DNA of 64,000 nt, taken from contig NZ_FOTR01000006.1 in NCBI RefSeq assembly GCF_900114645.1, forward strand, positions 124,001-188,000, given 5' to 3'. This document shows positions 10,147-22,530 of this stretch, in pieces. The first letter of the stretch is position 1; the number at the start of each line of letters is the position of its first letter. Source of the stretch: Gracilibacillus orientalis. Lineage in GTDB: Bacteria > Bacillota > Bacilli > Bacillales > Amphibacillaceae. A model generated the notes under the pieces. It was not told where the DNA came from and did not search any database. It saw nothing but the letters and a program-made list of their open reading frames with translations. The position numbers were made by a program, and so were the translations under genes.

Positions 10147-12005
10147 TATTCCTCTGCCTCCTTCTTCAAGTCTTCTTTATGGACGTGGTAACCTAGGTCA
10201 TCCTTAACAGATCTGACTAACATACATCCTAGTGTGATACCCATACCGATAAATAATACGATTAACCATGATAAATCATGTTTTTGATAAATGAACCCAA
10301 AGCCTGCGATAAATAAACCTAATGACATTACAAATGGTAAGAAAGAATTATTAGGCATGTGAATATCTGTAAGCGGCTCTGCCGGTGTCATACCTTTTCT
10401 TCCTTCCGTTTTTTCCACCCATAATGGGTCTAAACCACGAACTAATGGTAACTGCTTAAAGTTATAGAATGGTGGTGGTGATGGTATTGCCCATTCTAAT
10501 GTACGTGCATCCCAAGGGTCTCCACTTACTTTTTCATTTTTTACGGAAGTTTTAATAATATTAATTAATAACACGATAGTACCTAGTCCCATTAAGAAAG
10601 CACCTATTGTACTGATCATGTTCCCTAAATCCAGACCTTGATTTTCCATGTATACCCAATATCGTCTAGGCATACCCATTAAACCTAGGAAATGTTGGAT
10701 AAAGAATGTCAAGTGGAAACCAATAAAGAATAACCAGAAAGTAAGTTTTCCTAATTTATCATCTAAGACCGTACCAAACATTTTTGGCCACCAGTAGTGT
10801 GTACCGGCAAATAATGCAAATACTACCCCACCAACAATTACATAGTGGAAGTGTGCTACAACGAAATACGTATCATGGTATTGAAAGTCAGCAGATGCTG
10901 CCGCAACCATAACACCTGTCATACCGCCAAGTGTAAATGTAGGTATAAAACCTAATGCCCACAACATTGGGGTATTAATTTGGATACTTCCACCCCAGAG
11001 GGTAAACAACCAGTTAAAGATCTTAATACCTGTTGGAACGGCAATCGCCATTGTGGCAACAGCAAAGATAGAGTTGGCTGCTGGCCCCATACCTACTGTG
11101 AACATATGGTGAGCCCATACCATAAATCCTAAGAAACCAATTAGTACAGTCGCAAAAACCATTGCTGTATAACCAAATAAACGCTTCTTAGAAAAAGTTG
11201 AAATAATTTCACTAAAGATTCCAAAACCAGGTAAAGCCAAAATGTATACTTCCGGGTGTCCGAAAATCCAGAATAAGTGTTGCCAGATAACAGAGTTACC
11301 ACCCATGGCAGGATCAAAGAACCCTGCACCGAATAATCGGTCAAACATCATTAAAAATAACCCAACTGTTAATGCTGGAAATGCAAAGAGAATAAGTGCA
11401 CTTGCAACAAAAGCAGTCCATGTAAATAATGGCATTCTCATGTAAGTCATACCTGGCGCTCGCATGTTAACAATTGTTACCAGGAAGTTAATACCCCCGA
11501 TTAATGTACCCGCACCTGAAATCTGTAGACCTAATACATAGTAATCTACCCCTTCACCTATTGAAGTAGTAGAAAGTGGCGCATATGCTGTCCAACCAGC
11601 ATCTGCTGCTCCACCTGTAAACCAACCTACATTCAACATAATTCCACCGAATAAAAATAACCAGAAACCTAATGAGTTTAAAAACGGGAATGCCACATCG
11701 CGCGCGCCAATTTGTAAAGGCACTACCGCATTCATAAATGCAAAGATTAACGGCATTGCTGCCAGAAATATCATCGTTGTACCGTGCATTGTAATTAATT
11801 CGTTATAAAACCCTGAACTTACAAAGTCGTTCATCGGTTGTACTAATTGCCATCTAATAGCTAATGCTTCTAAACCACCAATGATAAAGAAAAAACCACC
11901 AGCTATGAGGTACATAATAGCAATCTTCTTATGGTCTACTGTTGTTAAGTAATCCCATAAAGTGGCACCGAGGCCTTTTTTGTTCGTAGCTACCATAGTA
12001 CTCAC
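10146..12005 (-). CDS. ctaD: caa3 cytochrome c oxidase subunit I
   Basis: The catalytic subunit (619 residues, about the B. subtilis length) with low-spin heme a and the heme a3-CuB site, where O2 is reduced and protons are pumped. Seen: '[13 protein letters not shown]' (heme a ligand His), '[17 protein letters not shown]' (CuB His, cross-linked Tyr), '[10 protein letters not shown]' (the CuB His pair) and '[12 protein letters not shown]' (heme a3 and heme a ligands). The start is GTG at 12005 behind GGGAGG. The C-terminal extension is typical of caa3 subunit I. Second gene of ctaCDEF, 17 bases after ctaC. Confidence 0.97.
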
Positions 12006-18649: not shown

Positions 18650-18670
18650 GCAATCCACATTTCCTGCAGA

Positions 18671-18703
18671 GTACAAAGGCCAATATCAAATGGCTTTTTA
18701 GAA
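18671..18703 (+). terminator. Weak terminator after ylaJ
   Basis: AAAGGCCA / TGGCTTTTT hairpin about 25 bases after the stop codon. The stem is short. Confidence 0.45.
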
Positions 18704-18777
18704 AATGGTTACTTATGTAATACCAAATTAACGCGATGAATTTGGATAAGTAGGAAGTCAAGGTTCTCACAAAAACT

Positions 18778-18809
18778 AAAAAAGAGGGTGTCATTGCACC
18801 CTCTTTTTG
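18778..18809. terminator. Bidirectional terminator before the 1134-aa gene's 3' end
   Basis: The stem AAAGAGGGTG / CACCCTCTTT with a 6-base loop has A and T runs on both sides. It serves the minus-strand gene ending at 18840. Confidence 0.85.
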
Positions 18810-18839
18810 CTTCATTCAGATCATATTAAGAAACATTCA

Positions 18840-21800
18840 TTATTTAATTGTAATTTTCTCAACAGATTCCATATTATTTGATGTTACTTTAATAGAAATT
18901 TCTCCAGTAGCTATTGCTTTTAATTCTTTGGTTCCAGTATCAAAGATAGCAACATATTTACCGGACTTCTTAGCTTTTTCAAGTTTACTTCCTTTTCCCA
19001 CAAATACATCTTCACTGGCACCCCACATAACTGATGCTGGATAGTGAAGAGGAAATTCTAATTCGCCTTGTTGGTGTCCAATTGCACGAAGCTTTACGAT
19101 ATCTCCTACTTTCATTTCCTTCGGAGCATCAAGTATAACGGATTCCAGTAATGGACGAACTTCTGCTCGAATCCATTCGCTTCCTTTTACCTTACTATTA
19201 TCTGCTGCTTGTTCAGGACCTGCTGCTTTATCTGGAACAGGAGTAGGATCAACACCAAACAAATTCCAAGCATAAAATCCTCCACTTTCAGGTGAGCCGT
19301 ATGGTGCTTTTCCGGCTGACCCCACAACCATGTAAGGTACCCCTTCTACCCGTTCTAAATTTGCAACATGGGCATGTCCACTTATATATATCGCACCTTT
19401 TCCTTCTGACATTTGGCGGAAATCAGTCAGCCAGTTCTCTATCAACTCTGCCTCTTTCCTGTCAGAAAGCTGACTATTATTTGTCGGTAATGGATCACGT
19501 GTAGGATGATGTCCAAATACGACAACATTGTTGATGGATGAATCGGTTGCTGCATCATTCAAAGATTCTTTTAACTCTATCATTTGATCAAAATCACTCG
19601 TCCGGAAGCTTCCTGTAGAGGAATCCAGTAAAATAAATCTTGTCCCTTGATGATCAAAGCTATAACGATTCTCCTCAAAAACAGCTAAGAAATTATCCAG
19701 GTTTCCTGAGCCGACGATTTCATGATTACCAGGAGTATAATAAATAGGGAATTCATCTCCCACTTCCTCCTCTAATACTTGTTTCGCAAAAGCAAAGTCC
19801 TCTTCCCACGCTGTATCTACAAGATCCCCATTTATGACTAGAAAATCAGGATTTTCAGCAACAATTTGCTGCAAGGCTTCGCGAGCCATTTTCACCTGAG
19901 AACTATTTGGATTCTTGGCAACGAACTGACTATCAGATAAAACTGCGAATTTCCAGCGATCATCAGAAATCTTAGTATTTTGAAGGATGAGTGGATCTTC
20001 TTCTACCTCAACTGGTTCTGGAATCTCAATAGAAGGTGGTACTTCGACCGTTAAATCATCAATAATCAACCGCCCTGTATACTGCTCATTAGAATTGGTT
20101 TCCACTGGATAAATACGCCACAATTTCACCGGGTATTGAATTCCCTCAGGTAAGCTGGTTTCAACGTATTTCCAGCCAGTCCAGTTAACTTGACTCGCTA
20201 ATGTTAGTGTGTAATTGGTACCTGAAGCATCCTCGATTACTGTACGGAGCCATGCCCCATTCCCATCACCATGTACCCACATCCCTATCTTTTGCACATC
20301 ACCTGGAAGTTCCAGTTTCGGTGAAGCCTGTAAATAAGCAGCACGAGTAGCTGTAGTTGATGAAAAATCATAACTTAACTGCATTCCATTTCCATTTCGG
20401 CCTGTGACCACTTCCATCGATGCATCAACATTGGAAGGATATTTCGTAGCTGTCCATCCTGCACCTGTCTCAAAATCAGAAATGTTCTCTGTCGTTAAAC
20501 CAATTGTAACTGGAAGAAGTGTCTCTTTCTCCTGTACTTTTACCGATAGAGTTGTTGACTGGCCATCTTGTAATGGCTCAACTGTAAAAGTTCCATCTTC
20601 TAATTCTTCTACATTAATAACTGATTCATCGTATGATATTCGAATATCTCTTGCTTCAATTGGCGCAGAATACCCATCTTTATCATAACCAATTACAGAA
20701 AACTTCTCTTCTCTTCCCATTTCAGTCCCGAGATAGGACTTTGTTGTTTCGATTCTATCCAACTTACCTAGAACCGTAATTTCTGATGTTCCTTTTGCTG
20801 ATTTAATCTGTGCTTCAGCAACTGCCTTTCCAGATTTATTGGCATAGAACACACCATTTTTATCAAAAGAACCAACATTTCCAGGAAGTGCCTGCCATCT
20901 TATTCCCTCCACATCGACTGGGGAATAATTTTCATCATGACCTTGTCCAATAAAACTTCTGCTTAAATCAGGGAAAACACGGTTACTAAATTCAGATTCT
21001 GATACCGTTTCAACAGCAAAGTTTGTCAACTTGCCGCTACCTTCCTCAGCAAAAATACCAATACCATTGGGTACTGCCCTTTCCGATCCATCGGAAGGAT
21101 TGTTTACAACTTCTGCATCTTCAGAACCAGGTGGTCGAGCAACCATCGTTGATGATCCGCCGCCATCAATATTTAAAGCCTGACGTGCCCCATTTTCTTT
21201 CATCAGTTGGGCCAATTCTTGATAAGTCATCCCACGGCTAGCCATTTGACGACCATCAACTAATGCTAAAATCATTGTTTTACCATCTTCTGAAAATCCT
21301 ACAGCCGTTCTTGGTGCAGCTGTGCTGTCATCCAGATTCTCTGTAATTTCACCATTTTCCATTAGCTTTACATTACCACCAACAGCGAATTCCATTAACG
21401 TATCACCGTCAACCTTTGGTGCATAAGAGACAGAAACCTCATCACCTATAACAAGACTTTTTAGTAAATTAGCTCCATCCTCACGACCTACGAGCACATA
21501 TGAGTTTTCATCAATCTGATTTTGCCCTATCCGATCCGAAACTTCAACTACTACTCCATCTTGCACCGTTACTTCATATACAGAACTTCCTCCATCAGGA
21601 CGCGACTCTTCTCCCCACAAGGATGTATAAAAACCCATTCCATTTTCAGGAATACTGGATTGGTTGAGAGCTTCTAATGGAACGTCACCATCTGGAAGCT
21701 GTACGATCCCTTCAAGGAATATATCAGTAATTTCACCTACCCCTTCCTTATTGACTCCAGCTGATAACGTGTGAGAACCCTGTGGTCCTTTAATCAATTC

Positions 21801-22244
21801 ACTGTCTTGAATCATTGTCCCTAATGGTGAATTGGTACGATTAATATCGAAAAAATCACCATTTACACCTCCAACAGCTCCATCCTGTTTTGCCATTTCA
21901 GACAGCGGACTGGCTTCCGTGACTTCACCGGGATAAAGCAAATCAGCGGATACTGCATCATTCGACAAATCCACTGTCATAACTTTCCCATTTAGCCAGC
22001 CCCGTGCATCAAAACGCTCAAAACTAATTAGCTGAATTCCAGGCCCAATTATTGTTTTTTCTTCATTTGCTAGAAGCGTTTTCCCCTCCGGACCAACCGT
22101 AACAATTGGCTCCGTACGATCTGATGAAGCAGATCGAGCTTCTGAGACAGGACTTGCTTTCGCATTCACCTGAATTGATGGTGTAAACGAAACCAAAATA
22201 ACAATTACCGCGAATAATACACTTAACCAATGTTTGCTATTAAT
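18840..22244 (-). CDS. Secreted phosphodiester glycosidase / metallophosphoesterase multidomain protein, apparent ATT start
   Basis: A very large exported protein (1134 residues). From the ATT at 22244 it has a full signal peptide: NSKHW, hydrophobic core LSVLFAVIVILVSFTP, cleavage site VNAKA. Domains: phosphodiester glycosidase (NAGPA-like, about 45-395) with 'GGVNGDFFD', 'PRTAVGFSEDGKTMILALVD' and 'LNIDGGGSSTMV'; Ig-like segments (about 400-580); a jelly-roll/carbohydrate-binding-like region (about 588-738, from 'DFETGAGW'); a calcineurin-like phosphoesterase (about 763-985) with 'LSDSQF', 'VINGDLVDT', 'TPGNHE', 'VVFGHHPT' and 'SGHAHV'; and a C-terminal Ig-like region. The likely job is removing sugar-phosphate or phosphodiester units from envelope polymers; the substrate is unknown. 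The frame has no ATG, GTG or TTG before the TTG at 22196, which would cut the signal peptide in half. GAGGGGAG sits six bases before the ATT. Confidence 0.8.
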   Translation of the reverse strand: MNSKHWLSVLFAVIVILVSFTPSIQVNAKASPVSEARSASSDRTEPIVTVGPEGKTLLANEEKTIIGPGIQLISFERFDARGWLNGKVMTVDLSNDAVSADLLYPGEVTEASPLSEMAKQDGAVGGVNGDFFDINRTNSPLGTMIQDSELIKGPQGSHTLSAGVNKEGVGEITDIFLEGIVQLPDGDVPLEALNQSSIPENGMGFYTSLWGEESRPDGGSSVYEVTVQDGVVVEVSDRIGQNQIDENSYVLVGREDGANLLKSLVIGDEVSVSYAPKVDGDTLMEFAVGGNVKLMENGEITENLDDSTAAPRTAVGFSEDGKTMILALVDGRQMASRGMTYQELAQLMKENGARQALNIDGGGSSTMVARPPGSEDAEVVNNPSDGSERAVPNGIGIFAEEGSGKLTNFAVETVSESEFSNRVFPDLSRSFIGQGHDENYSPVDVEGIRWQALPGNVGSFDKNGVFYANKSGKAVAEAQIKSAKGTSEITVLGKLDRIETTKSYLGTEMGREEKFSVIGYDKDGYSAPIEARDIRISYDESVINVEELEDGTFTVEPLQDGQSTTLSVKVQEKETLLPVTIGLTTENISDFETGAGWTATKYPSNVDASMEVVTGRNGNGMQLSYDFSSTTATRAAYLQASPKLELPGDVQKIGMWVHGDGNGAWLRTVIEDASGTNYTLTLASQVNWTGWKYVETSLPEGIQYPVKLWRIYPVETNSNEQYTGRLIIDDLTVEVPPSIEIPEPVEVEEDPLILQNTKISDDRWKFAVLSDSQFVAKNPNSSQVKMAREALQQIVAENPDFLVINGDLVDTAWEEDFAFAKQVLEEEVGDEFPIYYTPGNHEIVGSGNLDNFLAVFEENRYSFDHQGTRFILLDSSTGSFRTSDFDQMIELKESLNDAATDSSINNVVVFGHHPTRDPLPTNNSQLSDRKEAELIENWLTDFRQMSEGKGAIYISGHAHVANLERVEGVPYMVVGSAGKAPYGSPESGGFYAWNLFGVDPTPVPDKAAGPEQAADNSKVKGSEWIRAEVRPLLESVILDAPKEMKVGDIVKLRAIGHQQGELEFPLHYPASVMWGASEDVFVGKGSKLEKAKKSGKYVAIFDTGTKELKAIATGEISIKVTSNNMESVEKITIK

Positions 22245-22250
22245 ATAAAT

Positions 22251-22260
22251 CTCCCCTCTC
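22251..22260 (-). promoter_or_regulatory. Ribosome binding site that supports an ATT start
   Basis: The minus strand reads GAGAGGGGAG, then ATTTAT, then ATT AAT AGC AAA. This is the only Shine-Dalgarno-like tract near the signal-peptide coding region. The frame upstream is closed by TAG at 22260-22262. Confidence 0.6.
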
Positions 22261-22474
22261 TATCGTTTCTCTATGAAAATTCTAGCAAATAAATATTAAG
22301 AAATAGTATGATTTTTATAAACTTTTTTAGTCCAAAAGTATCTAATTTGTTAACTGAATATATTTAATTATTAAGAAAATATTGAGTGATATTCAAGGAT
22401 GCAACTCAAAATAGTAGGAATATCTTGGAAGGCCTCCACAGGTGAATGATGGAAGTGATTGAACAAATTAAAAT

Positions 22475-22503
22475 AGGCTATCGATGGGGTATCGACAGCC
22501 TAG
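22475..22503 (-). terminator. Possible terminator after the 84-aa gene
   Basis: The minus strand reads TAGGCTGTCGATA CCC followed by an imperfect complement ATCGATAGCCTA and TTTTAATTT. The stem has one bulge. The remaining sequence back to 22260 (AT-rich) shows nothing else recognisable. Confidence 0.5.
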
Positions 22504-22530
22504 AATCTAATATCATATTGGTTCCTTTTC

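Follow-up and report, generated by a model that had tools for sequence, protein, structure and literature searches.

Locus and gene product

The window analysed here is a stretch of 64,000 nucleotides from Gracilibacillus orientalis (genome G000; contig NZ_FOTR01000006.1, positions 124,001 to 188,000). Its minus strand carries a gene for a large, apparently secreted protein. The closest homologue lies in G002, a genome of the same genus assembled as one contig, and shares 82% protein identity, aligned from residue 1. The two loci are termed L001 (window) and L002 (G002). The features of the window locus are as follows.

18650..22530, no strand assigned: 3881-base stretch between yla genes, holding the gene and its leader; the same interval measures 68 bases in G002 and 102 in G015, with collinear flanks
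18840..22244, minus strand: coding sequence, 1134 residues, predicted secreted NAGPA / calcineurin-like phosphoesterase protein, from translation, domains and a dN/dS of 0.16 against G002
19365..19952, minus strand: Metallophos domain PF00149, residues 765-960 (E 1.6e-13; 51.9 bits, cut-off 21.5)
21051..21575, minus strand: NAGPA domain PF09992, residues 224-398 (E 1.1e-37; 130.2 bits, cut-off 25)
22155..22244, minus strand: signal peptide of 30 codons, from translation and hydropathy; cleavage presumably after VNAKA
22242..22244, minus strand: ATT, putative start codon and sole workable start in frame; the same codon in G002, whereas O. salinisoli has ATG at this position
22251..22262, minus strand: extended Shine-Dalgarno (SD) site UAGAGAGGGGAG, forming a duplex with the 16S tail; its first three bases are the in-frame stop TAG 22262-22260; identical in G002
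22279..22287, minus strand: extended -10-like element TGCTAGAAT, 34 bases before the ATT, a putative promoter element
22294..22321, minus strand: three hexamers in 11-base steps (TTTATA, CATACT, TTAATA), possible PhoP boxes; TTCACA/CTTACT/TTAACA in G002

Translation and hydropathy bear out an earlier note on this DNA, which had proposed a 1134-residue product with a signal peptide and a VNAKA site read from ATT 22244. The signal peptide begins with the n-region INSKHW, followed by a hydrophobic core whose best 12-residue stretch has a mean hydropathy of 3.42, and VNAKA precedes the mature part. Among solved chains, the NAGPA domain is best matched by a DUF2233 protein (3ohg) and NAGPA enzymes (6pki, 6pkg), and the phosphoesterase domain by phosphohydrolases (2dxl, 2zo9). 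No NCBIfam model scored above its cut-off for the 1134-residue protein. Most likely the product is an enzyme that is exported and releases phosphate from phosphodiester-linked polymers. The usual first metal motif of the phosphoesterase domain is D-x-H; in the homologues matching the search pattern, that of the domain at 19365-19952 reads SD[ST]Q.

Reading frame and ribosome-binding site

The frame is opened by the in-frame stop TAG (22262-22260, minus strand), after which the codons read AGA GGG GAG ATT TAT ATT (22244-22242) AAT AGC AAA CAT TGG. Inspection of the minus-strand frame confirmed that it holds no ATG, GTG or TTG until TTG 22196, which is codon 17 counted from ATT 22244 and falls inside the hydrophobic core of the signal peptide. 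In G002 none of these three codons occurs before an ATG at codon 9, where the window has GTA.

Upstream of the ATT, ten pairs with the 16S tail, two of them read as G-U, are formed by UAGAGAGGGG (22262-22253), and the duplex ends 8 bases before the ATT. The ribosome-binding site that had been proposed six bases upstream is thus real, although its description was too short. The SD energy at the ATT is -14.1 kcal/mol (stretch -22 to -5), a value equalled or bettered by only 5 of 3000 random 18-mers of the window. It is only -3.6 at TTG 22196 and -5.4 at the codon 9 ATG of G002. The 16S tail used for pairing is a sequence that we assumed; it was matched exactly 7 times in G002 and nowhere in G000 or G144, both of them drafts from which the rRNA genes are perhaps missing.

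The start site in homologues

Homologues were found at E 0.001 in 39 of 101 genomes (own genome included), with near full-length matches at E 0 in G002, G044, G047 and G068 besides the own genome. Among 159 genomes of the family, 20 matches at E 1e-200 fell in 18 genomes, again with the own genome counted. Start sites were compared at 52 loci, 38 of them distinct. In 36 of the 38 distinct homologues a canonical start lies between codons -14 and +5, preceded by an SD site of -8.6 kcal/mol or stronger. The other two are the ATT copies of the window and G002, in which no canonical start occurs near the homologous position; the first one comes at codon 17 and codon 9, respectively.

G002 matches the window in the codon occupied by ATT, in the position of the TAG and in its leader, and a block of 28 bases around the SD site and ATT (GATAGAGAGGGGAGATTTATATTAATAG) is identical in the two genomes. 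In O. salinisoli (L031/L077, 76%) an ATG stands exactly at the ATT position. Salinibacillus xinjiangensis (L054, 72%) reads GAGAGGGGAGATT-GTG-ATT-AAT-AGA, with a GTG one codon upstream of the same ATT, and in several Oceanobacillus and Ornithinibacillus the start, TTG or ATG, is shifted one codon downstream. The normal starts of relatives thus lie at the site or within a few codons of it, with the signal peptide present. Codon 9 is ATG in G002, O. salinisoli and Salinibacillus. The residues N-x-K-x-W that follow the start are kept in the window and G002 and match MNRKRW of O. salinisoli. When 397 genomes of the order, G002 not among them, were searched with a pattern, 7 sites matched; these were the window, Salinibacillus and five others with 2 mismatches each.

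In the tree, G000 and G002 pair with each other (100/100) and group with O. salinisoli and Salinibacillus (100/100), leaving the branching order among the three lines unsettled. Along this family the start slides, with GTG at -1, ATG at 0, and TTG or ATG at +1. The two ATT copies probably go back to an ancestor in which a canonical codon had been lost or changed and the ATT, well spaced from the SD site, had taken over. Two routes are conceivable: the ATT may first have been the second codon behind a GTG, or an ATG may have changed to ATT. At L054 (1998-2006), GTG-ATT-AAT stands behind the same SD site, the GTG 5 bases and the ATT 8 bases after the SD helix; S. xinjiangensis may use its ATT too, since its GTG is so close to the helix.

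Conservation and selection

Between the window and G002, differences are few close to the start (3 of 53 bases from -44 to +9) and rise upstream to 6 of 26 (-70 to -44) and 14 of 40 (-110 to -70). Beyond -120 the identity is about that of chance, with 7 to 14 bases agreeing per ungapped 40-base stretch in four stretches. Within the gene, 175 of 448 four-fold sites differ (0.39). At this rate, finding at most two differences over the 48 bases that run from the -10-like element to AATAG would have a probability of 2e-8, four-fold sites being taken as neutral and independent. Part of the leader similarity could reflect shared history, since the surroundings of the G002 copy bear marks of recent exchange. 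Three bases alone would stay unchanged without selection with a chance of 0.61 cubed, about 0.23, which is not unlikely; the case for the ATT therefore rests on the whole conserved block together with the missing canonical alternative.

The protein itself is evidently made, as its dN/dS against G002 is 0.16 (0.29 over codons 2-34). Seven core genes compared between G000 and G002 show four-fold divergences of 0.28-0.44, and the 0.39 of the present gene exceeds six of them.

Location and history of the gene

The yla genes of G002 and G015 are collinear with those of the window and lack the gene, which in the window adjoins a YlaJ-type gene. The G002 copy lies elsewhere, directly ahead of a 5'-nucleotidase gene (NT), which is followed by a GH43 gene. 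On contig C13 of G000 the two latter genes occur in reverse order, GH43 first. The NT of C13 (L169 6345-7853) has a leader of the window-gene type ending GAGATTTATATTTATG, and that of G015 (L170 6656-8164) also stands behind such a leader; the NTs of G002, G005, G129, G143 and G144 have leaders of other types. Over 74 aligned bases, the C13 NT leader agrees with that of the G002 gene at 72, the window leader with that of G002 at 67, and the window leader with that of C13 at 65. Four-fold divergence between G000 and G002 is 0.20 for NT and 0.15 for GH43. Both values lie below those of the core genes (0.28-0.44) and of the present gene (0.39), so these two look to have been exchanged more recently.

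The simplest reading is that, on C13, the gene dropped out of an array of leader, gene and NT, so that the remaining leader still carries the ATT, and that the window copy came to sit apart with its own leader. Such a loss explains the NT leader in G000 and G015 better, because this leader type stands on the gene in O. salinisoli and Salinibacillus and five NTs are without it. On this reading the ATT would have persisted through a split at species level and probably also through a relocation. Copying of the leader from NT into the gene was also considered as the origin of the ATT and was dropped on the same distribution of leaders. Upstream of the G002 copy (L168, about 10467-10824) lies what we take to be a broken piece of an IS256-type transposase, a possible agent of rearrangements.

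Alternative explanations

Translation of the gene most probably starts at ATT 22244, to which we assign a probability of about 0.87. The ATT and leader of G002, the ATG of O. salinisoli at that codon, purifying selection and the absence of a canonical alternative in the window all support this start, as the earlier note had proposed; initiation at the ATT in vivo is what these sequence comparisons point to. A sequencing or assembly error that made an ATT out of a normal start had been named as the chief alternative, and one base would be enough in one genome. However, ATT, TAG and the bases around them recur in a separate genome whose protein is 82% identical, and GAGATTTATATT is also found in the related leader that precedes another gene on contig C13. 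An error is thereby refuted as the chief alternative and is now barely credible.

Translation might instead begin downstream, at TTG 22196 in the window and at the codon 9 ATG in G002, with a shortened or failed signal peptide. The ATG shared at codon 9 by G002, O. salinisoli and Salinibacillus could serve in G002, and gene finders limited to ATG, GTG and TTG would choose such codons. Yet codon 9 of the window is GTA, and TTG 22196 combines its poor SD energy with a position in the hydrophobic core. Moreover, N-x-K-x-W, which lies ahead of that TTG, is kept in both species and matches the O. salinisoli protein; we regard a downstream start as improbable. It is still harder to credit that the gene has decayed into a relic with little translation after the loss of its start. 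The window gene does sit at a place of its own, and ATT starts can be very weak, as seen with Listeria reporters (PMC13068326), but an open frame of 1134 codons with a dN/dS of 0.16, at a four-fold divergence above that of six of seven core genes, argues for a working gene.

Comparison with known non-canonical starts

AUU starts are rare but already known, and the window gene appears to be an additional case. The nearest parallel within the genome is infC, whose context GGAGGTGG-CTG-NNN-ATT-AGC-AAA-GAT was found in 5/5 genomes examined, G000 included. Alternatives exist there, each of the five having an ATG at codon 5 and three of them in-frame ATGs upstream; from its context and known infC practice, infC of G000 probably starts at ATT. 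As described in the sources cited, infC starts with ATT in E. coli and Listeria, ATC in Streptomyces and AUA in S. aureus (PMC5472188, PMC13068326, PMC13009471). Both infC and the window gene join a near-cognate start to a strong SD site, but infC is autoregulated by its own product, whereas an exported enzyme has no such loop.

Further cases from Firmicutes are described in S. aureus, namely cvfC1 (AUU), ccpN and citZ (both AUA), where the AUU and AUA starts have extended SD sites and those of cvfC1 and ccpN are conserved among Staphylococci or to B. subtilis (PMC13009471). The window gene resembles cvfC1 and ccpN in its extended SD site; it differs in that these three encode a small zinc-finger-like protein, a repressor and citrate synthase and were found by initiation-site profiling, whereas its own start is proposed from sequence alone. 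The E. coli pcnB gene has a chromosomal AUU start limiting expression, according to a title cited in PMC13009471 (Binns and Masters 2002); it shares the chromosomal AUU with the window gene, but encodes the poly(A) polymerase of a proteobacterium. Streptomyces sigR is described as having an IF3-repressed GTC start with an extensive ribosome-binding site and as misannotated in genomes (PMC5472188). It is alike in joining a non-canonical start to an extensive site, and differs in its codon, in encoding a sigma factor and in that the IF3 effect was demonstrated for it. On the side of the product, extracellular calcineurin-like proteins related to B. subtilis ShfP, some of them NAGPA-fused, share the secreted calcineurin-like domain and NAGPA with the window protein, and teichoic acid is among the predicted targets of ShfP (PMC11488536). 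ShfP differs as a forespore protein, and that source describes no unusual start in its passages on it. Among the matches listed in the literature searched, no report was found of a secreted phosphodiesterase gene that starts with AUU.

Expression of the gene

The conserved leader looks like a promoter and is perhaps PhoP-controlled. The nine bases TGCTAGAAT lie 33-34 bases before codon 0 in 4/4 clade members (L001, L002, L031, L054). The three hexamers upstream stand in 11-base steps, PHO boxes being 11-base direct repeats (PMC4415409), and a similar register occurs in several relatives. Control by PhoP is a lead only, because shuffled sequences scored as well in 618/2000 (L001) and 364/2000 (L002) cases and the boxes of the ATT copies are thus not significant. 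Phosphate release by the enzyme would suit Pho control. A literature search found no paper on yvnB with PhoP in Bacillus.

At the start itself, the 30S subunit would be held by the unusually long SD helix and the initiator tRNA would decode AUU as a near-cognate start, against which IF3 is expected to discriminate. In S. aureus reporters, AUU and AUA sites gave about 10% of AUG in poor medium, and the ccpN AUA up to 30% in rich medium (PMC13009471). In Listeria reporters the order was ATG > ATA > ATT (PMC13068326). Given these results and those from Streptomyces, the ATT start is likely several-fold weaker than an ATG would be, and synthesis may be low or IF3-dependent, in agreement with the suggestion of the earlier note that a weak start would restrain it. 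It may even yield very little product, since the Listeria ATT reporter was below fluorescence detection and left a faint protein band on a blot. A more far-reaching possibility, which we hold to be rather doubtful, is that selection maintains the ATT as a brake on translation of a phosphate-scavenging exoenzyme, in which a starvation-type promoter, an extended SD site and an IF3-sensitive start have been kept through divergence and relocation. If that were true, secretion of a very large protein would track the ratio of IF3 to ribosomes.

Implications

Gene finders that allow only ATG, GTG and TTG would cut this protein within its signal peptide. In the passages of the literature cited here, non-canonical starts are mostly on regulators and on translation and stress genes, a range that is broadened by a conserved example on a large exported enzyme. 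Furthermore, with GTG-ATT, ATG and ATT at one site, the relatives form a natural series for how a non-canonical start arises and persists.
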